Positions 1 through 64,000 of a stretch of 64,000 bases of DNA are shown in pieces. Each line of letters starts with the position of its first letter. Within the stretch, counting starts at the first letter, position 1. The DNA comes from Thermosynechococcaceae cyanobacterium Okahandja. GTDB taxonomy: Bacteria > Cyanobacteriota > Cyanobacteriia > Thermosynechococcales > Thermosynechococcaceae. The DNA lies in the NCBI GenBank assembly GCA_041530395.1, contig CP136945.1, positions 1,364,001-1,428,000 on the forward strand, in the 5' to 3' direction. A program made the translations under genes and the position numbers. Below the pieces are notes generated by a model. That model did no database searches. It was not told the DNA's origin and worked only from the letters and a program-made list of their open reading frames with translations.

Positions 1-1303
1 CCTTGAGCAGTTGATCGCGCCGCTCCCACATGGCGGCGGCAATTTCCGGCGACATACTTTGCCCCAGTAGGCGCATCACCATTTGCCGTTGCCGTTGAGC
101 CTGTTGGGCAGTATAAGTCACCACACTGCCACTCGAGAGCAGCAGCGTTAAGCTAGGCGGCACGAGGGGCACCCAGCCTAACTTCAGGAACAGACCGTAG
201 CAGGTGGCCAACAGAAGGGTCAGGCTCAGACCAAGGGCGATCGCCAGTCCTAAGGGATGCCGCACCCGCCAAGCCAGTACCGCCCCCACCAACGACCAGA
301 ACACCATCCAGCCCACTTCCAGCCCATCGGGCCAGAACCAGATCATCGACCGTCGCCCCAGCCCGGCATCAATGAACTGCCCCACCATCTGAGCGTGGAT
401 AAACACCCCCGCCAACCGCTGATCGTCCTGCAAACTCGAGCTAAAGGGAGTGTAAAAGAAATCTTTACCACTCTCGGCAATATTGCCCACCAGCACGACG
501 CGATCGCGAATGAGGTCGGGGTTAACCCGTCCCGCCAACACCTCCCCGAGGGGCACCCACGTAATGGCCCGATGATCGCCACGATAGTTGAGCATCACCT
601 GATAGCCTGCGGTATCGGCTCTAACATAACCCCCATCATTGGGTTGCAGGGGCGTAAAGACCGTCTGCCCCAACTGCATCACGTGGGGATCCGCATCACT
701 GCCGCGCGGCTCAATACCCTCGTCGGCCAAGTAGCGTAACGCCAAGCGCAGCGAAAACGAGTAGAGGGGATTCCCCTGATCATCCGCTAAAAATAGGATG
801 TTGCGCCGAACAATCCCACCCGAATCCACCGTGACATCATTAAAGCCCACCTGATCGGCACTCAGGGCAGGGGGGGGTGCAATCGTGGGATGGATGTCAT
901 CCCCCAACTTGGTCACCGCAAAGAGGCGATCGGAGCTTTGCCAGACCCGATTTAGATCCTTGTGGCCGGGTTCCACCGGAAAATCGCGATAAATATCTAA
1001 GCCAATGGCGCGGGGGTTGTGCTGTAGCAGCTTTTGAAGCAGGTCTGCATACACTTGATCCGGCAAAGACAGGGCGCGATAGCGCTGGATATCGGCTTCG
1101 GTAATGCCCACCACCAGTAGGCGCGGATCTGCCCCCGCAAAAGGGCGCAACTGCATCAGGCGGTCGTAGGCGGCCAACTCTAGGGGCTGTAGCCCCCCCA
1201 AACTGCGAATCCCCACCACAACAGCACTGGCCACGGTGGTGGCCATCAGCACAAGACCCAGATCGGCAAAATAGCGACGAAAGTGGGAAAATAGGGGGGG
1301 CAT
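1..1303 (-). CDS. CHASE2-domain sensor, probable adenylate/guanylate cyclase (3' part outside window)
   Basis: The minus-strand frame is open from an ATG at 1303 to the window edge, so the protein is incomplete. Residues 1-30 contain a first membrane segment, followed by a roughly 270-residue extracytoplasmic CHASE2-type domain (motifs like RLLVVGITEADIQ, RAIGLDIYRDFP, and DRVVLVGNIAESGKDFFYTP). Three hydrophobic segments follow, and then QSMSPEIAAAMWERRDQ, which resembles the stretch just before class III nucleotide cyclase domains. A membrane sensor making cAMP or cGMP is the best reading, but the catalytic domain is not visible; a CHASE2 histidine kinase is less likely because of that linker. 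It is divergent from the gene at 1340, with only 36 bases between the starts. Confidence 0.8.
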   Translation of the reverse strand, partial: MPPLFSHFRRYFADLGLVLMATTVASAVVVGIRSLGGLQPLELAAYDRLMQLRPFAGADPRLLVVGITEADIQRYRALSLPDQVYADLLQKLLQHNPRAIGLDIYRDFPVEPGHKDLNRVWQSSDRLFAVTKLGDDIHPTIAPPPALSADQVGFNDVTVDSGGIVRRNILFLADDQGNPLYSFSLRLALRYLADEGIEPRGSDADPHVMQLGQTVFTPLQPNDGGYVRADTAGYQVMLNYRGDHRAITWVPLGEVLAGRVNPDLIRDRVVLVGNIAESGKDFFYTPFSSSLQDDQRLAGVFIHAQMVGQFIDAGLGRRSMIWFWPDGLEVGWMVFWSLVGAVLAWRVRHPLGLAIALGLSLTLLLATCYGLFLKLGWVPLVPPSLTLLLSSGSVVTYTAQQAQRQRQMVMRLLGQSMSPEIAAAMWERRDQLLK

Positions 1304-54578: not shown

Positions 54579-55250
54579 CTAACGAGCGGTTTCGGTTTTA
54601 CCGGTGCGGGTAAAGCGGACTTCAATGCGGCGGCGGGACGCATCAGAATGACGGTTCGCTGGGGCTAGGGTGCCGTTAGCAAGGTATAGTTGCCCCGCAG
54701 AATAGGCGCGGAAATTCAGCCCATTTAGTTCAGGTTTTTTGCGCAGTTCGTTGGCGATCGCCAGTGCCCGCATTAAGCCTAAGTCTGCATTTGAACCGGG
54801 GGTGAGACGGCCTAATGTATTGCTAGCCACCGCTTGCTCTAGCAACAGATCAAGGTTACTGGTTCGGCCTTGGTTGGGTTGGCCATCCGTATGACCAATG
54901 ATTTCAATGGTATCGATCGCGTACGCTTTGCGGTTAGCGATAATCATTGAGGTTAGGTCCGTCTGGATGTATCTGCGAAACGGCGCTGATAGCTGAGCAC
55001 TGCCGACCCCAAATCGAAATTTTTCATTATCAGGAATAAACAGAATGGGGGGAGTGCCTCGCACGCCATCTATGGCTTGAAGCTGCCGTCGCAGTTGATA
55101 AATCTCTGCTTGGTTAAAAACAATAAACACGAGCATGAAAAAAGCAATTAAACTTAGAATCAGGAGGCTACCGGACATTAAATCGGTATAGGACATCCAA
55201 GGGTTGAGATCCTCTGGTTCCTGTGGCCAAGGGCGACGGGATGGGCGCAT
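54579..55250 (-). CDS. MotB/OmpA-type stator subunit (ZorB-like)
   Basis: A 223-residue protein with a single N-terminal membrane helix: SYTDLMSGSLLILSLIAFFMLV. Asp23 sits where MotB and ZorB have the ion-binding Asp. A C-terminal OmpA-like peptidoglycan-binding domain follows (IEIIGHTDGQPNQGRT; NRHSDASRRRIEVRF). It would form a stator-type ion channel with the preceding MotA-like protein. It starts 10 bases after that gene's stop and is the last gene of a four-gene operon with the tubulin-like GTPase and VWA protein. Confidence 0.85.
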   Translation of the reverse strand: MRPSRRPWPQEPEDLNPWMSYTDLMSGSLLILSLIAFFMLVFIVFNQAEIYQLRRQLQAIDGVRGTPPILFIPDNEKFRFGVGSAQLSAPFRRYIQTDLTSMIIANRKAYAIDTIEIIGHTDGQPNQGRTSNLDLLLEQAVASNTLGRLTPGSNADLGLMRALAIANELRKKPELNGLNFRAYSAGQLYLANGTLAPANRHSDASRRRIEVRFTRTGKTETAR

Positions 55251-55260
55251 GGGGCAGCAC

Positions 55261-57093
55261 CTACGTTTCGGGTGAGGTCAACACAGGGGTGGGCAGTTGT
55301 TGGGAGAGGGTAACAAGGTTGCGGTTAATTTGCTCAAGGGATTGAGCCGTTCGGGTCATAGACTGGCAGGAGTGTTGAGCTTGGTTGTGCAACTGTGTTA
55401 ACTGATCCACCATCAATGCTGCGGCGTGATGCACAAGTTCTTCCATGCGGGTGTCAAGCGCCTTAATTTGGCTCTGGCGATCGCTATCCGTCATGGAGCG
55501 GTGTCTGCGGTAGTTTTCAAAATCAGCCCTCAGGGTTCTAAATTGTTCCGTGAGGCTCTTATACTGATAATCCATTTGGGTGGCTGCGTTGGCAATTTGA
55601 GCGGCAGCCTCACCCATTTGCTTGAGGTGGGTGTCATGGAGATGGAAAATGTTTAAAAGCTGCTGATGATTCTGTTGATTTTCAGTGATAACGTTAGACA
55701 CATTGGCAGAGAACTCATTGACGGCCAATCGTACCTGATGCAGTGCCTCATTTCCCCGTAATAGGTGCTCGGAAACATTTGTGCTTACGTGTTCCACCGT
55801 GCGCAGAAGGCTAAGGAGTTCTGCGTGATTTTGGGCAAGGGTTTTTTGAGATGCGTTGGCGATCGCAACCACTTCACGCAAGTTTTCCGCGACTTGGGCT
55901 AATTCTGTGGACTTACTCGCAACTTGTTGATTAACCCTCTCAATGTGGCTGAGCAGTTCTAGGGTGATGTCGTGAATGTGGGTAAAAGTGGCGGTTGTGG
56001 TACCTAGATGGGTGGCAATTTGCTCAAAATCAATTTGCGTGCGGTTAACGGTCTCTAAGGTTTGGGATACTTTCTCATTCAGTTCAATGACGGCTGCATT
56101 TAATTGGTGCGATCGCGCCCCTGCGGCCACAAGCTGATCAATAAACTGCGCCAGTTGCTCGGTGGCGGTACTAAACGTCTCTGCAAATCGACTCTCTTCA
56201 AGCGCGCGCACTGCCGTCTGAAAGACATTAGCACCTGTAACTAGATTACCCGAAGCATTATCGATTCTGCTAAAAATTCTTTCAGCTAATTCCACATTCT
56301 GGCTGTGCATTTTCCGCAAATTTGCTAATTCCCGCTCTAGGGGCCTTTCAATGGCATCTGTCACCGTTTGGCTAAAATTTTGTAAGAAGATATTAAAGTT
56401 ATGATCAATCGACTTGATTAACCGTCCAGTGGGGTTGCGGTTTTCGTTTGCAAGTTCATGATCCAGATACAGTTCCACGGCAGTGAAAAAGTGCCGCCGC
56501 ACCAATGTTGTATTCCACACCGAGTTCACAGAGGTTAAGAGAATACCCAAGGAAAGACTCGCCAAACTTGAGACAAAGGCGATTGCCATGCCGCGTAATG
56601 GGTCACGGAACTGTTCAATTAAATCTTGAATCACTGTAACCGCTTGGTTAGAGCCCGCAGCTTGCAACCCTGAAATATCTAGGGTCGCCAAATTATTCAT
56701 AATACTATAAACATTGATAGTGATTCCCAAAAATGTACCTAACAAACCAATGGCAATGAGGAGGTTGGGGGTGACCCGCGTCAGGTATTCTACCTGCTCT
56801 AAGGACAAGCCCCATAGTCGTTCCTGGGCAAGGGTATAGTCCACTAGGGCAGCCGTATTGATCTCATCGTAATGCTCTAAACACCTGTGCATTCGGTTTC
56901 GTAACTCTTGAATTAGGTGCGGCGCTTGACCGGTCTCTGTAGCAACCGCCCAGTCCCAGCGCGTAAAGTGCTTGAGATGATAGTACAGTCGCAGCCGCAA
57001 CAGGACACTCATCAGGGCGATCGCGATCGGAACGGCAATGAAAATTTGCAGCAGTAGTGAAATCCTCACCTCTTCCCAGAAAAGAGCAATCAT
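55261..57093 (-). CDS. MotA/TolQ/ExbB-type channel protein with long coiled-coil tail (ZorA-like)
   Basis: The 610-residue protein has membrane helices at about 11-32, 108-131 (PNLLIAIGLLGTFLGITINV, the MotA/TolQ motif) and 168-192 (MAIAFVSSLASLSLGILLTS). From about residue 215 to 590 it is an almost unbroken helical coiled coil rich in Gln, Asn and Leu, resembling the tails of ZorA and of chemoreceptors. Such a tail could reach far into the cytoplasm and touch the tubulin-like partner. It starts 17 bases after the stop of the tubulin-like gene. Confidence 0.83.
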   Translation of the reverse strand: MIALFWEEVRISLLLQIFIAVPIAIALMSVLLRLRLYYHLKHFTRWDWAVATETGQAPHLIQELRNRMHRCLEHYDEINTAALVDYTLAQERLWGLSLEQVEYLTRVTPNLLIAIGLLGTFLGITINVYSIMNNLATLDISGLQAAGSNQAVTVIQDLIEQFRDPLRGMAIAFVSSLASLSLGILLTSVNSVWNTTLVRRHFFTAVELYLDHELANENRNPTGRLIKSIDHNFNIFLQNFSQTVTDAIERPLERELANLRKMHSQNVELAERIFSRIDNASGNLVTGANVFQTAVRALEESRFAETFSTATEQLAQFIDQLVAAGARSHQLNAAVIELNEKVSQTLETVNRTQIDFEQIATHLGTTTATFTHIHDITLELLSHIERVNQQVASKSTELAQVAENLREVVAIANASQKTLAQNHAELLSLLRTVEHVSTNVSEHLLRGNEALHQVRLAVNEFSANVSNVITENQQNHQQLLNIFHLHDTHLKQMGEAAAQIANAATQMDYQYKSLTEQFRTLRADFENYRRHRSMTDSDRQSQIKALDTRMEELVHHAAALMVDQLTQLHNQAQHSCQSMTRTAQSLEQINRNLVTLSQQLPTPVLTSPET

Positions 57094-57110
57094 TTTTACC
57101 TCAACGCCGC

Positions 57111-60100
57111 CTAATTCGAGTTATCTTCAGCATCATTTGCTGTATCCACATTTGGTGATTGCGCAGGCAATTGATTCTTAGCGTTAATACTTTGAAGAGA
57201 CTGCACTGTATGCTCTGGAAGAGGCGGTACTGGAGGGTCTGGGGGGGGATTTCCCCGCTGCCGTTCAATTTCCTCAAGTAACTCTTGAAGAATACCTTTA
57301 CGAGCAACTTGAGTAAGGCCTCTAATTTCAGTTCCTGCAACAATCGGCACCATGGCGTAGTTAAGATGATGTTGGGGATATTGGCGAATTTCGTTAATCA
57401 ATACTCTGATTCTCTTGCAATAGCTGTCTGCTTCCCGAGGATTACTAATCAGAAACTGGATTATTTCACTTAACTCTTCTCGCAAGACATCCACTAGATT
57501 CTGACCACGTTGGTCTTGATTGCGAACCCGAACCCAACTAAGCTGATCAATGACGGCTGACCAGTCATTGCCAAATACAATTGGTTGACCTGTTCTTTCG
57601 TTTCTCCAGATTAAATTATCACCTTCTAACTGAAAAATCCCGAGACCGAGGCACTTAAAGAATAGCTCTTGAATTTCTTGGACAACTTCAGGTGGGGGCG
57701 GCAGAATATCTGTGAGGGTAATTGTTGCATTGGTGTGCAGGTAGTTAAAATTTCCAGCCTGACAACGATTTTCGTAAGCAAACTGATAGTTTCCCTCCCT
57801 GAGGTCATTCACCAGCCGCAGTGGAAACCCAGCATACTCAGTCATGAAAATCACTTGATGCTGCTCCGAGGCCGGTAGTTGAACCCGCGTAGCATTGGCA
57901 AGTAGTCCCGTTTGTTGGAGCAACTGGGTAAAGCTTTGAACGTGCGGATCCTGACCGGCTGGTTGATGGTAAGCAATAAGCCGCGTGTACTTATGGTTCG
58001 CATTATTAAAGTGACCATCACCAAGGTTCAGGGGTAGCAGAATATCTGACTGATGTTGCAAAGTTTGCAGATAGGCAATGAGTTGTTGCTGAGAACCCAT
58101 CTCCATAAATCGTTGAATGGCTGATCCTCTGAGGGTCACCATTACAGAAGCAATGCGTTTATCTACCACCTGATCGAGGGCAGGGGAAAGTTGCGTAGGA
58201 GCAAATTGCGGCCCCAGAAACCTGTGCAGACTGGGGGGGGGATCGCTACTAACCGTAGCCGCCTCTTGAATGACCTCCATCGAAAGCTGGTTTAAAGCCA
58301 AGCGCCGTTCTTGTTCTTTTGAGGGTAGAACGGCATTGATGGCCTGTTCCGTATCTTGCTTGCTCATGATGGGCAAACCAATGCGCTCTTGAATATTCAC
58401 TTCTGCTAGCTTCTCGCCACGCGTTTGCAGTAATGCGATACTTTCGTTAATGTCACCGCGTAGCCTGTTCAGGCTACTAATTTTCTCACCCGTAAACGTA
58501 ATTAAGTGCTCGACAGCCACCTGAACTTGACGGCTGATCTGCCATTGATAGTTTTGGCGTGCTAGGGTAACCACCTGATCCACCGCCGCCCGAAATGCTT
58601 TTTGAATCTGCTGCTTTTTGCCAAAGGGCAGGAAACGCCCCTGAATGGCTTGCACTTCGTTCTGCATGCGGCTGCTAATGTTCCGTAGCTCTGCCTCTGC
58701 CTCTTTCGGGCGCTGACCGGCATACTGATCACGTACCTGCTCAAGATTGGTTTTCAGGTATTGCAGCCAGTTTAAGGCACGATCAAGACCAAAGAACTGA
58801 TGATCCGGTTGAAGAATTTGTTTTAAAAACTGCTCAATGCTTTCTTTGATGTCTTTGGTAATGTCTGATGTTTGCTCAACAATGGGGGTCAGCCACACGC
58901 CCCGCTCCTTACTGCTGTCGGCAGGGCGCACGAAGTTCAACAGTGCCGCTGCATTTTGAGGCAGTTGTACCTTAAGGCTATCTTGCTCAGCACGGGTTTG
59001 GGCAGCACTAATTTGCCGGTACTGCTCATTGCGCCAGCGCTCAAGATTCTCACTCAGGGGGCTTCCGTTGACCGCCACTTTTTCTAACCGCTGCTGTAAA
59101 AGTTGGCCAAGATCATCCGTACCCCAATCAAATTGGCTGGTATAAAGCTTCTGGATTTGAGTATTGCTGGGGGTCTGGCCAAGGCCACTTTCCCAGAATC
59201 GCAGCACCTGAATTTTAATTTGATTAGCCGCCACTAAATTAATTTTGTCTTGCGGAAAATAAATACTGGCGAGGCCGGCAGTGATGTACCGTTGGCGGTT
59301 GGGGCGGGGGTGGCGATCGTGGGGTTCGGTAGCATCAATGGCGCGCAAATTATCGCGGGCAGAAACGGCTGCGCGTGCAGTCGCATTACTCGTTACAAAA
59401 AGGCAAATTTTCTGGGCGATGATGTTGGTAATTTTCCCCTTGGCATTGGGATCGATGCCGGGAATCACGAAGGTGCCCCCCGGCGTGGCATTGGAAATTA
59501 GGTAGGTGAAGTCGTAGGGCGGACGGGATTCTGCGAGGCGGGGCTCACCCGGGTATTGGGCATTGAAGATAGTGCCCTCGCGAGTGTAGTAGTCCAGTTC
59601 TTTGAGGGCGGCATAGCAGTTGCCTTTAACCACATCGTTGTTGCCGTAGAGATCCGCGCTGATGAGAAAGTAAGCGTGGGTTTCAAAGCTGGGTACAGTT
59701 GCCGCAAAGAGCCGCCGTAGGATGTAGCCCACGTCCAGAAATATGCCACTACCGGTACCACCGCAGAGGGAACCCGCTACAAATACTCGCAATCCCGGGG
59801 CCACGTTAATGTCGCGGCTAATCAGAGCAGCGATATCGGCAGCAGCAACCCGCCCATAGGCTTGGTTCAAGGCCTGAGACACGCTGTGATAGTTCTTAAA
59901 TAGGGCAAAGCGGCCTACGGGTCGCAGAGCGCCAGCGCCGTTTTCAATGGTACTCAGATTACGAATGAGTTGATTGGGGAACCACTCGAGAATGTGGTCA
60001 TCAGGAGTGTCGATAAATCTGTTGTTTTGCCGACGTTCGTGGTTGTGCTTAAATTCATTGACCGTATTCGCAGGGACGCGAATATGCACGTACTCAGCGG

Positions 60101-60323
60101 GCGTAAATTCAATACGTTGGCCGCGGTAGCTGGGAATAGAACCAGCGCCATCGGTGTCAATCTGCACAAAACTAATAATCGGTAACTGGTTTAAGTCACC
60201 GTAGGCTTCAACAAGGTTCTGACGAATACGCACCAATACCTCTCGCCCTGTGCCTCCTAGCCCAACACAAATTGTACGCATCACGGGTAATAAGCCATCC
60301 CCTGCAGGTTCCACACCAACCAT
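57111..60323 (-). CDS. large tubulin/FtsZ-like GTPase (Tubulin_2 type)
   Basis: A 1070-residue protein. The N-terminal nucleotide-binding fold has RTICVGLGGTGREVLVRIRQ (residues 16-35) and the tubulin signature loop CGGTGSGIFLDVGY (GGTGSG at 188-193). The middle is helical (about 480-690, with charged coiled-coil stretches), the rest a mixed C-terminal domain and a Pro/Asn-rich tail. FtsZ has about 350-400 residues, so most of this is extra. AAGGAG precedes the ATG at 60323. Families of this type are known next to VWA and OmpA genes and were predicted to remodel membranes. GTP binding is likely; polymerisation is untested. Confidence 0.85.
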   Translation of the reverse strand: MVGVEPAGDGLLPVMRTICVGLGGTGREVLVRIRQNLVEAYGDLNQLPIISFVQIDTDGAGSIPSYRGQRIEFTPAEYVHIRVPANTVNEFKHNHERRQNNRFIDTPDDHILEWFPNQLIRNLSTIENGAGALRPVGRFALFKNYHSVSQALNQAYGRVAAADIAALISRDINVAPGLRVFVAGSLCGGTGSGIFLDVGYILRRLFAATVPSFETHAYFLISADLYGNNDVVKGNCYAALKELDYYTREGTIFNAQYPGEPRLAESRPPYDFTYLISNATPGGTFVIPGIDPNAKGKITNIIAQKICLFVTSNATARAAVSARDNLRAIDATEPHDRHPRPNRQRYITAGLASIYFPQDKINLVAANQIKIQVLRFWESGLGQTPSNTQIQKLYTSQFDWGTDDLGQLLQQRLEKVAVNGSPLSENLERWRNEQYRQISAAQTRAEQDSLKVQLPQNAAALLNFVRPADSSKERGVWLTPIVEQTSDITKDIKESIEQFLKQILQPDHQFFGLDRALNWLQYLKTNLEQVRDQYAGQRPKEAEAELRNISSRMQNEVQAIQGRFLPFGKKQQIQKAFRAAVDQVVTLARQNYQWQISRQVQVAVEHLITFTGEKISSLNRLRGDINESIALLQTRGEKLAEVNIQERIGLPIMSKQDTEQAINAVLPSKEQERRLALNQLSMEVIQEAATVSSDPPPSLHRFLGPQFAPTQLSPALDQVVDKRIASVMVTLRGSAIQRFMEMGSQQQLIAYLQTLQHQSDILLPLNLGDGHFNNANHKYTRLIAYHQPAGQDPHVQSFTQLLQQTGLLANATRVQLPASEQHQVIFMTEYAGFPLRLVNDLREGNYQFAYENRCQAGNFNYLHTNATITLTDILPPPPEVVQEIQELFFKCLGLGIFQLEGDNLIWRNERTGQPIVFGNDWSAVIDQLSWVRVRNQDQRGQNLVDVLREELSEIIQFLISNPREADSYCKRIRVLINEIRQYPQHHLNYAMVPIVAGTEIRGLTQVARKGILQELLEEIERQRGNPPPDPPVPPLPEHTVQSLQSINAKNQLPAQSPNVDTANDAEDNSN

Positions 60324-60369
60324 TCCGACTCCTTATCGTTAACAACACAACTTGAATACGATAAATAGG

Positions 60370-61434
60370 TTATAGGGAAATCCTGACTACCTCATCTTTG
60401 TATGCAAGGCTAATAAAGCCGTACTGTTTTGGAATTGCCACTGCGCCTACAATTGGTTGCCCATTATAGATTAAATCTGGCTGAAGAGGGTGGATAACAA
60501 GGGTTTGGTTTCGGCGGTCAAGGGTGGCGATCGCCTCCATACTGGGTAAAGGCACCACCCAAAATGTGCCCGGTACTGCTCCCCCTAAGCCAATTTTCTG
60601 GCCATGCTTGAGGTTAAATTGGTATTCTTGGTCTGCAACTTGCACCGTTACTGTCCACGGTATTTGCTGCCGTAGCCAGCGGATGAGCAACCCCAATCCA
60701 ATGCCGATTCCCCCTAGCCCCAGCAAACTTGCTAGTAAAATTTGCCACCAAAGCTGTCCCCAGAGGTAGCTATTCACTAAGCAGACTTCGCCACCCCCGG
60801 GTTTAGGGGTACAAAACTCCTGTACGGTGGCGGGAATATCCACGACTGTTAACTGGAACTGCCCCGGTTGGATACTGCGCTGGGTCATGGGGAGGGCTTG
60901 CAGCCACTGCGATCGCTCGGCGGCGGCGGGGCTACCTGTAATACCGCAGGGGCTGTTGGGGGCTTCCACCCATTGGGCAGCTTGCCCTTCCGGTAGGTTG
61001 AGGGGAGCATCCGTTAACCAAATCACCGACTGCTCTTTGATGGGTTGGTGGTTGTGCAGCCGCTCCTGATTCAGTTGTGCCAAGTAGCGGTAAACAAACC
61101 GTTCAGCACATTGAATATCTGTACCCCGCTCAAAGCCAGCAGTCATCGGAACGGCGGCGAGGATTTTGGGAATATCTGCTACCCCCTGATACTCAAAAAC
61201 CACCGGCGATCGCGCCGTTGTGGCAAAGGGAATAATGTGTAGCGTATCTCCTTTTGTCAGGGTCTTCTCAACAATTTGGCGTAGGTGCAACCGCCCCGGA
61301 TCATTCAGCCCTACACTTTCAGTCAGGTCAATGGCAAGCACCACATCCCGTCCCCCCCAACGTCCGACCCATGCCAACCCCTGCCGCTGCTGTGAGGTCA
61401 GGGGGCGATTACCGGGAACAATTAGGGCAGCCAT
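60370..61434 (-). CDS. VWA-domain membrane protein
   Basis: The 354-residue protein begins with a von Willebrand A domain: VVLAIDLTESVGL gives a MIDAS-like D-x-T-x-S (Asp36, Thr38, Ser40), with RGTDIQ and WLTDAP as later metal-site elements. A membrane helix follows near 230-255 (ILLASLLGLGGIGIGLGLLIRWL), and a C-terminal beta-rich domain ends the protein (FNLKHGQKIGLGGAVPGTFWVV). It is the first gene of the four-gene operon; the tubulin-like gene starts 46 bases after its stop. A metal-dependent adaptor at the membrane is the likely role. Confidence 0.82.
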   Translation of the reverse strand: MAALIVPGNRPLTSQQRQGLAWVGRWGGRDVVLAIDLTESVGLNDPGRLHLRQIVEKTLTKGDTLHIIPFATTARSPVVFEYQGVADIPKILAAVPMTAGFERGTDIQCAERFVYRYLAQLNQERLHNHQPIKEQSVIWLTDAPLNLPEGQAAQWVEAPNSPCGITGSPAAAERSQWLQALPMTQRSIQPGQFQLTVVDIPATVQEFCTPKPGGGEVCLVNSYLWGQLWWQILLASLLGLGGIGIGLGLLIRWLRQQIPWTVTVQVADQEYQFNLKHGQKIGLGGAVPGTFWVVPLPSMEAIATLDRRNQTLVIHPLQPDLIYNGQPIVGAVAIPKQYGFISLAYKDEVVRISL

Positions 61435-61836: not shown

Positions 61837-63245
61837 GTTCGGGGAGCGATAAGTCCCGCGCTGGTCGGGATACATGGACTCCCCGCGCTTGTCTCTGGGG
61901 TTAGATACCCTAGAGACAAGCATTTACCATCGGCTACAAGTCGTGGTGAAATACAACTATGCTGACCCTGAACTACACCTACCGCATCTATCCAAGTGCC
62001 GCACAACAAACTGAACTGCTGGACTGGCTTGAGACGTGCAGAGGCGTGTATAACTACGCTTTGCGCGAACTCAAAGACTGGATGGCTGCCCGGAAGTGTC
62101 CAATAGACCGATGCTCGTTGGAAAAAGAATACATCATTCCCGCCGATGAGCCGTTTCCGTCTTATCACCGTCAGCAAAACAACCTGCCCAAAGCCAAGAA
62201 GCAATTCCCTCATTTGGGCAGGGTACATTCTCAGGTGTTGCAGACGACAATTCGTCGGTTGCACGATACTTGGGAAGCGTTTCAGAAGCGTGGACACGGG
62301 TTTCCGCGCTTCAAAAAAGCCGGTCAGTTCAAGTCCTTTGTGTTTCCTCAGTTCAAGGACAACCCTATCAAGAGCAATGTTATCAAGCTGCCCAAGATCG
62401 GGGAAGTGCGTATCAACCTGCATCGCCCTATTCCTGACGGGTTCACGGTGAAGCAGGTGAGAGTTGTGTCCAGAGTACGGGGGACGCAATGGTACGTTGT
62501 GGTCAGTATCCAATCAGATGTGTCGGTTCCTGACCCTCCGGTTCATGGTCGAGCCATTGGCATTGACCTTGGATTGGAGCGATTCTTAACCCTTTCGGAT
62601 GGTAGTTTCTACAAGCGATCCAAGTTGTTCAAGTCGGAGCAAGGCAAGCTGAAATTGCTGCAACGCAGGGCGGCGAGAAAACAAAAAGGGTCTCGAAACT
62701 GGGAAAAGGCTCAAACGAAAGTGGCTAAACAGCACCATCGGATAGCGAACCGTCGGAAAGATTTTCATCTGAAGACAGCACATCAGTTGTGCGATCACGC
62801 TCAAACGATTTTCGTAGAAGACCTCAGCGCCAAAAGATTGGTTAGAGGAATGCTACGAAAAGATTGCGTGGATGCCGCTTTTGGACAATTTTTGTCTCTG
62901 CTGGCGTGGGTGTGTTGGAAGCGAGGCGTGTACTTTGCCAAAGTCGATCCCAACGGCACCAGCCAAACCTGTCCAAGGTGTTTCGCTACGGTCAAGAAGC
63001 CGCTGAGCGTTCGAGAACATGATTGTCCAGAATGCGGGTATCGGACGCATCGTGACCATGCAGCTGCAGAGATGGTGTTGCATCGTGGATTAGAAAATGT
63101 AGTAGCCCAAGGACGCTGGGGAAGGGAAACCGCCTGTCAAGTCGGTCTGTCGGGGGTCATTGACCTAGACAAGTGGCGTGGGGCAGGAATGCCCAATCGT
63201 GAGGTTGGGAATCCCGCGCTGTAGTTCAGCGTGGGAGGATGTCAC
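61837..63245 (+). mobile_element. IS200/IS605-family element, tnpB only (type B)
   Basis: Ends are inferred by comparison with the 84-base MITE at 38679: the left end is GTTCGGGGAGCGATAAG (from 61837) and the right end GGGAGGATGTCAC (to 63245). The right end has a hairpin of CCCGCGCTG and CAGCGTGGG. The element holds one gene, tnpB, and no tnpA. The sequence just beyond 63245 would serve as the guide of its RNA. Confidence 0.75.
61959..63224 (+). CDS. tnpB: TnpB RNA-guided nuclease with intact zinc ribbon
   Basis: A canonical 421-residue TnpB: N-terminal LNYTYRIYPSAAQQTELLDW; RuvC Asp203 in AIGIDLGLERF, Glu287 in IFVEDLS, and Asp366 in THRDHAAA; and a zinc ribbon with Cys338, Cys341, Cys356 and Cys359. 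All catalytic and structural residues are present, so it should be active. Its C-terminus reads into the right-end region that forms the omega-RNA scaffold. It contrasts with the ribbon-less TnpB pair at 7.4 and 23.5 kb. Confidence 0.93.
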   Translation: MLTLNYTYRIYPSAAQQTELLDWLETCRGVYNYALRELKDWMAARKCPIDRCSLEKEYIIPADEPFPSYHRQQNNLPKAKKQFPHLGRVHSQVLQTTIRRLHDTWEAFQKRGHGFPRFKKAGQFKSFVFPQFKDNPIKSNVIKLPKIGEVRINLHRPIPDGFTVKQVRVVSRVRGTQWYVVVSIQSDVSVPDPPVHGRAIGIDLGLERFLTLSDGSFYKRSKLFKSEQGKLKLLQRRAARKQKGSRNWEKAQTKVAKQHHRIANRRKDFHLKTAHQLCDHAQTIFVEDLSAKRLVRGMLRKDCVDAAFGQFLSLLAWVCWKRGVYFAKVDPNGTSQTCPRCFATVKKPLSVREHDCPECGYRTHRDHAAAEMVLHRGLENVVAQGRWGRETACQVGLSGVIDLDKWRGAGMPNREVGNPAL

Positions 63246-63284: not shown

Positions 63285-64000
63285 CTAGATATCTAGGCTC
63301 TCTAATGCCAGTTGGGGGCCATAGGTCTCAATAAATTCCCGCCGCGGGGCAACGCGATCGCCCATGAGAATGGTAAAAATGCGATCGGCTTCCGCCGCAT
63401 CCTCAATTTCCACCAGCTTGAGCATCCGCGTTTCGGGGTTCATGGTGGTCTCCCATAGCTGCTCCGGCATCATTTCCCCTAGCCCCTTAAAACGCTGAAT
63501 CGTGTAGTTGGCATTTTCAGGGAAGGTGGCAAGCTGCTGTTGCAGTTCGCGATCGCTATAGCAATAAAAATGCTGTCGCCCCCGCTCCACCTTATAGAGT
63601 GGTGGACAGGCAATATAGACAAAGCCGCGGTTAATCAGTTCCTGCTGGTAACGATAGAAAAACGTCAGCAGTAAGGTACGGATATGGGAGCCATCCACAT
63701 CCGCATCGGTCATCAGGATCACCTTATGGTAGCGTAGCTTCGCCGGATCAAATTCCTCCCCCTTGACCCCTAGCCCCAAGGCCGTAATGAGGGCTTGCAC
63801 CTCATTATTTTTATAGATTTTGGCATCATCAGTCTTCTCAATGTTGAGGATTTTACCCCGCAGCGGCAGAATGGCTTGGAAGCGGCGATCGCGTCCCTGT
63901 TTGGCACTATTGTGGACAAATACACCACTCGCTAAAGCAAAGTTATGGGTACCCGGAACCTCTAGATCATAGACATCAACCCTCTCAGCTAGCAGTTCCA
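63285..64000 (-). CDS. gyrB: DNA gyrase subunit B, 3' part, interrupted by an intein
   Basis: The frame is open from the stop at 63285 to the window edge. The extein part begins [22 protein letters not shown] and continues with the Toprim [22 protein letters not shown] and the GyrB C-terminal [19 protein letters not shown] and so on to the normal end. Upstream of SAKQGRDR the frame does not give the expected GyrB sequence (GDSAGG) but an intein C-terminus. GyrB supplies the ATPase and part of the DNA gate of the supercoiling enzyme. The 5' portion lies outside the window. Confidence 0.95.
63909..64000 (-). other. intein C-terminal region within gyrB
   Basis: The last intein residues read [23 protein letters not shown] and are followed by Ser of the extein. 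This is the classical block F/G of inteins (VYDLEV...THNF...GVFVHN-S). The insertion point, GDSAGG before SAKQGRDR, is that of the Synechocystis GyrB intein, whose C-terminus is very similar. Whether an endonuclease domain is present cannot be seen here. Confidence 0.88.

Follow-up and report, generated by a model that had tools for sequence, protein, structure and literature searches.

We analysed a 64,000-nucleotide stretch, hereafter the window, from the genome of Thermosynechococcaceae cyanobacterium Okahandja (assembly GCA_041530395.1, contig CP136945.1, positions 1,364,001 to 1,428,000 of the forward strand), a single contig of 2.8 Mb. Four genes in this window, here called VWA, TUB, MOTA and MOTB, form a cassette in which a stator of the type found in the Zorya defence system (ZorAB) stands beside a tubulin-like GTPase and a membrane-anchored VWA protein. 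A ZorAB-type motor is thus bound by gene order to a tubulin-family protein, and this association spans two phyla, being found in cyanobacteria and in Deinococcota. As no effector of Zorya was detected beside it, we do not regard the cassette as Zorya itself. We give about an even chance to the reading that the motor senses the state of the envelope and acts on the tubulin-family protein as its effector, for conflict or defence.

Features of the cassette (window coordinates, strand, description and basis):
60370..61434, minus strand: VWA, cassette gene 1, 354 amino acids, with a VWA domain, one membrane helix and an FHA-like domain (open reading frame, metal-site conservation in 29 members, model)
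60838..61365, minus strand: VWA domain, metal-ion-dependent adhesion site (MIDAS) D36-x-T38-x-S40, T105, D142 (alignment, model)
60679..60747, minus strand: VWA membrane helix, residues 230-252 (hydropathy)
60370..60663, minus strand: FHA-like C-terminal domain of VWA, residues ~258-354 (model aligned to Rv1747 FHA-1)
57111..60323, minus strand: TUB, tubulin-like GTPase of the Tubulin_2 / FtsZl1 family, 1070 amino acids (PF13809, E 3.5e-74; model against CetZ, Z 22.5)
60246..60263, minus strand: TUB GLGGTG loop, residues 21-26 (invariant, 26 members)
59745..59762, minus strand: TUB GGTGSG tubulin signature loop, residues 188-193 (invariant, 26 members)
58131..59183, minus strand: TUB helical insert of ~350 residues between the GTPase domain and the C-terminal tubulin domain, residues ~381-731, approximate (DSSP of the model, ranges of structure matches)
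55261..57093, minus strand: MOTA, ZorA-like stator subunit, 610 amino acids (PADLOC ZorA; core profile against the PDB)
56344..57093, minus strand: MOTA motor core, residues ~1-250, three hydrophobic stretches, invariant T120 and S176 (hydropathy, core alignment)
55264..56343, minus strand: MOTA helical tail, residues ~251-610 (coiled-coil-type matches; length differs among loci)
54579..55250, minus strand: MOTB, ZorB/MotB-like, one helix and an OmpA-like domain, 223 amino acids (PADLOC ZorB1, 6.4e-9; ZorB and PomB in the PDB; OmpA below threshold)
55182..55184, minus strand: MOTB Asp23 codon, ion-channel aspartate (invariant in 27; aligned with D24 of 8VVN ZorB)

Results

The four genes keep their order across cyanobacteria

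The sequence-only reading of this stretch had described four tightly spaced minus-strand genes, and the open reading frames (ORFs) bear this out, with intergenic gaps of 46, 17 and 10 bp. It had also named the lack of co-occurrence elsewhere as grounds for abandoning the idea of a unit; instead, the four genes recur together. Relatives of TUB are present in 38 of the 194 cyanobacterial genomes searched, and a cassette-type locus in 30, a minority. The cassette occurs in several cultured genera. The set examined comprised the window and the 29 best-matching loci, one per genome, along with 11 stretches holding weaker, solo-type TUB copies and the solo copy of the window genome; weaker TUB matches in G095, G097, G105, G111 and G125 were left out. 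Strict order and strand (VWA, TUB, MOTA, MOTB) are kept at 27 of the 30 cassette-type loci, split TUB copies counted. The three exceptions are two contig ends (L041, L053) and one locus with VWA and TUB without the stator (L051). TUB is split or truncated at four of the 30 (L054, L062-L064), and in L064 MOTB is a fragment as well. Neither VWA nor MOTB occurs in any of the solo-type stretches.

A second set, the best 80 of 130 loci that were cyanobacterial by title (nine of which repeat a TUB of the first set), gave the same picture, with all four genes at 70 loci and strict order at 68. Among the 12 exceptions, the missing gene coincides with the end of a contig in six (L076, L077, L119, L144, L152, L155), the VWA side is truncated in two that also have no MOTA next to TUB (L081, L136), and two are rearranged despite ample flank (L114, L141); the remaining two are taken up in the Discussion. 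Cut contigs account for 8 of the 15 exceptions over both sets. An order kept this strictly, with median intergenic gaps of 19-82 bp across loci, is more than chance would give. Since no other neighbour family occurs in more than six of the 30 cassette-type loci, the unit consists of these four genes.

The same genome also carries a solo Tubulin_2 paralogue without VWA or stator partners (L003:7546-10836; C1 ~716777), as do two further genomes of the genus. In another stretch (L069), a MOTA match (1e-28) 7 kb from a solo TUB is probably coiled-coil noise, the genome being without MOTA at 1e-6.

MOTA and MOTB form a ZorAB-type stator

MOTA has three hydrophobic stretches (residues 7-37, 107-126 and 168-189), and the window protein matches the PADLOC model ZorA1 at 2.7e-8, its Pfam matches being weak and confined to the tail. 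A tail-less profile was built from 16 MOTA cores. Against the PDB it retrieved five ZorA sequences at E<0.001, the best being 8VVN (4.1e-7); among its 11 matches up to E 5 there was no MotA, TolQ or ExbB chain, and the other six were unrelated. The cores match the PADLOC models ZorA1 (16 of 16, best 2.8e-18), ZorA2 (15 of 16) and ZorA3 (13 of 16). Pfam MotA_ExbB matches 13 of the 16, weakly, and gives no match to the window core. T120 and S176 are invariant in the 16 cores; in the alignment with 8VVN ZorA they fall on a Thr and a Ser.

MOTB has a single hydrophobic stretch (residues 21-53), matches ZorB1 (6.4e-9, PADLOC) and finds 8VVN ZorB as its best PDB match (2.5e-6), with Asp23 aligned on ZorB D24. 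All 27 aligned members keep this aspartate, and 69 of the 72 MOTB members of the named set have a [TS]DLM motif. The Pfam OmpA match is below the cut-off (0.0013), and the OmpA-like domain is conserved among members. In Zorya, D24 of ZorB lies packed on a ring of Ser/Thr residues in ZorA, and defence requires this aspartate as well as the peptidoglycan-binding domain and the extension of ZorA (PMC11890865). With the channel aspartate, the conserved Thr and Ser as in ZorA and the OmpA-like domain, the aligned sequences identify MOTA and MOTB as a ZorAB-type stator. The earlier likening to ZorAB is thereby upheld, most clearly for MOTA by the core profile and PADLOC, as is the description of MOTB by an Asp23 in its membrane helix and an OmpA-type domain. 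A loss of that aspartate in homologues, which would have told against the earlier reading, was looked for, and the residue is kept. For MOTA, the proposed channel with a coiled-coil tail stands, except that the tail measures ~360 residues, not ~380.

TUB is a tubulin-superfamily protein with a long predicted insert

TUB belongs to the Tubulin_2 family (PF13809, E 3.5e-74, Pfam), the family of Makarova and Koonin's 2010 study, and matches no PADLOC model. The sequence-only reading had noted the GGTGSG loop of this 1070-residue protein and cited that study. Both nucleotide loops, GLGGTG and GGTGSG, are invariant in 26 aligned members (of 30 loci, the four split copies being excluded), so that the GTP motifs, whose loss in homologues had also been considered, are maintained; in the named set, exact GLGGTG is found in 69 of 77 members and exact GGTGSG in 76. 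The AlphaFold2 model, built from 26 sequences, has a mean predicted local distance difference test score (pLDDT) of 76 and a predicted template modelling score of 0.67. It matches CetZ with Z 22.5 over 304 residues (root-mean-square deviation 4.3, model range 13..856), and tubulins and FtsZ with Z ~20.

These matches begin at residue 12-14 of the model and end at 833-877, although the targets are ~305-445 residues long. In the model, the tubulin C-terminal domain would thus lie at ~734-875, behind a mostly helical insert of ~350 residues; this placement comes from the range ends and the DSSP string, not from a residue-by-residue reading. The catalytic T7 loop was not identified in TUB. The sequence, with its conserved nucleotide loops, places TUB in the tubulin superfamily. 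Makarova and Koonin saw no resemblance between this family and the C-terminal domains of tubulins (PMC2875224), and a 2023 study puts Tubulin_2 proteins outside the main history of the FtsZ/tubulin family (PMC9871819).

VWA is membrane-anchored and keeps its metal site

The VWA protein matches no Pfam family and no PADLOC model. Its alignment of 29 members keeps D36, T38 and S40 of the MIDAS invariant and T105 and D142 nearly so. The model (pLDDT 84) shows a VWA domain (Z 10.8, 134 residues, root-mean-square deviation 3.1), one helix and an FHA-like C-terminal domain that meets Rv1747 FHA-1 (Z 9.9, 89 residues, deviation 2.9). By eye, the Gly-Arg pair of the phosphothreonine-binding Gly-Arg/Ser signature of FHA domains was not spotted in the alignment. 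The conserved residues, the single helix and the modelled fold agree with the earlier description of a VWA membrane protein: the metal site is kept, and the protein is anchored in the membrane. Basic residues that follow the membrane helix, together with two invariant Cys residues within the VWA part, suggest that this part lies on the outside; no signal peptide is evident, which conflicts with this placement.

Selection holds the motor while the tail changes length

Seven close pairs from other loci show purifying selection: their pairwise ratio of nonsynonymous to synonymous substitution rates is 0.10-0.37 in VWA, TUB, MOTB and the core of MOTA, and 0.17-0.43 in its tail, for which the pair L059/L060 includes a split gene. 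Protein distances of the four genes correlate over 41 loci, without species-tree control, at r 0.67-0.92, highest for VWA-TUB (0.92) and lowest for TUB-MOTB (0.67).

Tails of cassette MOTA proteins range from ~170 to 990 residues, the extremes being split genes. Within one genus, MOTA is present in 8 of 12 genomes, and the cores share 92-98 percent identity with the query copy. Five of these genes are unsplit and encode 662 to 1108 amino acids, another, of 514 amino acids, is close to the end of a contig, and the remaining two (L059, L260) are split. In-frame 303-bp tandem repeats occur in the tail of four of the eight (L059, L256, L260 and L261). Tail length therefore changes fast while the motor is held.

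Probable repeated loss of the cassette

Only three of the 11 genomes of the window genus carry the cassette, at three sites with different flanks. The window copy adjoins a TPM-domain gene, the G218 copy lies between genes read as psaL and mlaD, and the G212 copy is elsewhere again. The TUB gene of G218 is disrupted by an inserted ORF that, by reading only, resembles a transposase (L179:6178-7185).

At the G218 site, five of the eight cassette-less genomes (G213, G215, G216, G217 and G219) retain scars with differing end points, consisting of pieces of the VWA 5' end and/or the MOTB 3' end (L221, L222, L223, L231, L232); the piece in G217 is 98 bp at 76 percent. The site is clean in G089, G179 and G214. 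Loss and not fresh insertion therefore explains this site, and an ancestor probably carried the cassette there and lost it several times since. With the G218 site so explained, and no tandem repeats inside the window cassette, we dropped the idea that the cassette is a mobile element. No plasmid copies were found by tblastn with the window MOTA, an insensitive search, since it also missed the Deinococcus copies.

Relatives in Deinococcota

On four Deinococcus plasmids, genes for a protein of 418-449 residues, a small hydrophobic one, TUB, MOTA and MOTB lie in one direction, along with two larger genes. In the QL22 copy, Pfam identifies Tubulin_2, MotA_ExbB just below the cut-off and OmpA, and LRV/DUF2336 in the next gene; its MOTA matches ZorA1 at 1e-8 (PADLOC). 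Profile comparison links Deinococcus and cassette MOTA proteins at 96 percent (E 3.4e-9) and, more weakly, the MOTB proteins at 62 percent (7.5e-5), with the FSDL aspartate aligned. The first Deinococcus gene looks like VWA by eye, and profile comparison gave a probability of 0.5 percent; we claim no homology. The QL22 copy adjoins an annotated AAA ATPase and a DUF2357 gene, and an annotated IS630 transposase disrupts the TUB gene of D. radiophilus (L197:11504-12476).

Plasmids of Thermus, Meiothermus and Allomeiothermus (L189, L192, L193) hold a different set, consisting of vWA, tubulin-like, unknown and BrxL genes, with an insertion sequence ahead of brxL in Allomeiothermus. In the one copy scanned, the unknown gene (~680 residues) matched neither Pfam nor PADLOC. 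The vWA protein is likewise not claimed as a homologue of the cassette VWA (profile-comparison probability 2.4 percent), and the set is possibly a separate, BREX-like conflict system. On plasmid p2 of Azospirillum sp. TSA2s (L190), a tubulin-like gene lies near two annotated caspase-family and two OmpA-family genes.

Other genes near the window cassette

Between the cassette and gyrB lies an IS605-type TnpB (OrfB) gene (61959-63224, plus strand), the PADLOC matches of which are Cas12f models. The gyrB gene itself (window 63285-64000, running on to 66512 in L004) seems to bear an intein: the whole ORF has 1075 residues, and a weak Pfam match to intein splicing, below the cut-off, lies directly ahead of the TOPRIM part. 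Promoter- and terminator-like sites are rarer than in shuffled sequences, and Rfam gave no match.

Discussion

The reading that we favour, at about even chances as stated at the outset, treats the four genes as encoding one membrane machine. By analogy with the published Zorya model, a MOTA5-MOTB2 complex would sit in the inner membrane, and MOTB would sense a disturbance of the peptidoglycan. The stator would then pass ions, and the helical rod of MOTA would be turned or reshaped. In place of the Zorya nucleases, the rod would meet TUB, the helical insert of which is a possible docking arm, while the VWA-FHA protein may tether or license TUB at the membrane. Once active, the motor would either trigger or halt the GTP-dependent assembly of TUB where the disturbance lies, so that the envelope would be sealed or blocked, or the cell killed. 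The most likely use would be conflict or defence, as anti-phage or envelope surveillance; that the motor acts on TUB, and does so for defence, we infer. In favour of this reading we count the conserved cassette without a further recurrent neighbour, the co-varying protein distances, the purifying selection, the ZorA-type core, the alignment of Asp23 with D24, the modelled folds of TUB and VWA, the loss pattern, the plasmid relatives in Deinococcus and the Thermaceae, and the conflict role predicted for tubulin-vWA gene sets with a GTPase (PMC7159879). A more specific version, in which torque or rod rearrangement from a ZorAB-type motor switches whether a tubulin-like polymer assembles at the membrane, an immune response triggered by the envelope and tuned in reach by the length of the MOTA tail, we put forward tentatively and consider somewhat improbable as it stands. 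It would be, to our knowledge, the first machine with an ion-driven rotary stator built to act on a tubulin-family GTPase.

Several observations weigh against this reading. For MOTB, the match to PomB (0.0007) is comparable with two of its three ZorB matches (0.0018, 0.0021). The partners do occur apart: TUB stands alone in L108 and L129 despite ample flank, and L081 has TUB and MOTB without MOTA. Relatives of MOTB were found in 39 of the 194 genomes, inside a cassette in 28; among the other 11, of which 10 were examined and G167 was left out, eight fetched stretches have a MOTA-MOTB pair without VWA or TUB (L236, L237, L240, L241, L242, L243, L245, L246), G054 has MOTB apart from its VWA-TUB, and G159 has a MOTB fragment. 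The coupling of motor and TUB is therefore common, not obligatory, because the stator pair also exists without TUB. As for defence, no nuclease or toxin domain was matched in the four cassette proteins, and of nine window ORFs near the cassette TnpB alone matches PADLOC. No PADLOC enrichment is visible near cyanobacterial cassettes, which argues against a defence island. Here 110 of 253 neighbours were scanned and 79 models matched, none by more than three proteins among the matches listed; for controls (90 of 184 scanned) it was 57 models, none by more than two among those listed. With 25 models listed and no tally of proteins with any match, this comparison is weak either way. A pattern scan found no TUB relatives in viral contigs, and the one weak match in a phage record is an unannotated 9.8-kb faecal contig. 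Finally, patchiness and loss fit any dispensable trait.

The main rival is an envelope remodelling or growth machine, in which the stator pulls peptidoglycan or an envelope partner and TUB is a membrane scaffold placed by VWA. Membrane remodelling was proposed by Makarova and Koonin for the association of FtsZl1, VWA and OmpA proteins (PMC2875224), and the full tubulin fold in the TUB model, the OmpA-like domain kept in MOTB and the lack of either a recurrent neighbour or a defence enrichment would all suit it. Against it stand the restriction of cassette-type loci to 30 of 194 genomes, the repeated loss within one genus and the ZorA type of the motor core, with no TolQ or ExbB chain matched. 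We consider it rather unlikely.

It is quite improbable, in our judgement, that the cassette joins two independent modules, an envelope-sensor stator and a VWA-tubulin module that serve one pathway side by side with no physical coupling. The TUB-less stator pairs and the stator-less VWA-TUB locus L051 speak for such a division, as do the distance correlation, which is best for VWA-TUB and least for TUB-MOTB, and the Thermaceae gene that follows the tubulin-like gene without a Pfam or PADLOC match in the copy scanned. Against it stand the strict order in both cyanobacterial sets, the median gaps and the same TUB-MOTA-MOTB order in Deinococcota. An ion-driven motility or surface-force device with TUB as a cytoplasmic track, for which the 5:2 motors that power gliding in other bacteria and the highly variable MOTA tail would speak, is very improbable, since the cassette occurs in unicellular as well as filamentous genera and no neighbour family stands beside it in more than 6 of 30 loci. 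A thylakoid role, for or against which nothing was found, was dropped.

Comparison with described systems places the cassette between them. With Zorya types I-III it shares ZorA/ZorB-like sequence, the channel aspartate and the Thr/Ser positions; as in Zorya, the A subunit is extended by a long cytoplasmic part and the B subunit has an OmpA-like domain. It differs in that TUB and VWA stand where Zorya has its effectors: as the sequence-only reading had remarked of ZorC, ZorD and ZorE, no Zor effector was found among the nine window ORFs near the cassette, and the models for ZorC, ZorD, ZorE, ZorF and ZorG did not match TUB or VWA either, in a search confined to these proteins. General stator homology (weak MotA_ExbB matches, the PomB match) connects it to MotAB, TolQR and ExbBD; unlike in flagellar MotAB, the closest solved stator is ZorA for the MOTA core and 8VVN ZorB for MOTB, with PomB second.

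Like the FtsZl1 systems of Makarova and Koonin, the cassette combines a Tubulin_2 protein with a long helical part, a VWA partner and an OmpA-family partner. Here, however, the OmpA-type partner is a stator B subunit adjoining its A subunit, and the TUB model, in contrast to the FtsZl1 description, has a predicted tubulin C-terminal domain behind the insert. The main text of PMC2875224, supplements apart, does not mention MotA, TolQ, ExbB or MotB. The GAP1-N2 GTPase-centred systems, tubulin/vWA gene sets with a GTPase that are predicted to act in conflicts (Kaur et al. 2020, PMC7159879), similarly have a coiled-coil-fused tubulin beside membrane-bound vWA proteins. They were reported from Firmicutes and Actinobacteria with their GTPase, whereas the cassette has a stator and no recurrent extra gene; no GAP1-N2 GTPase domain was found in the four cassette proteins, and no additional neighbour family reaches more than 6 of the 30 loci. 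In the literature searched, which included few subscription papers or preprints and no supplements, we found no link between Tubulin_2/FtsZl1 and a MotA/ZorA-type stator, and no tested function for the Tubulin_2 family.

Zorya motors work with nuclease-type effectors (PMC11890865); here, gene order connects a motor of this type with a cytoskeletal GTPase. Should MOTA/MOTB and TUB interact, an ion-driven motor would control a protein of the tubulin family. This would link two fields, and the Tubulin_2 family would gain a partner and a testable mechanism.

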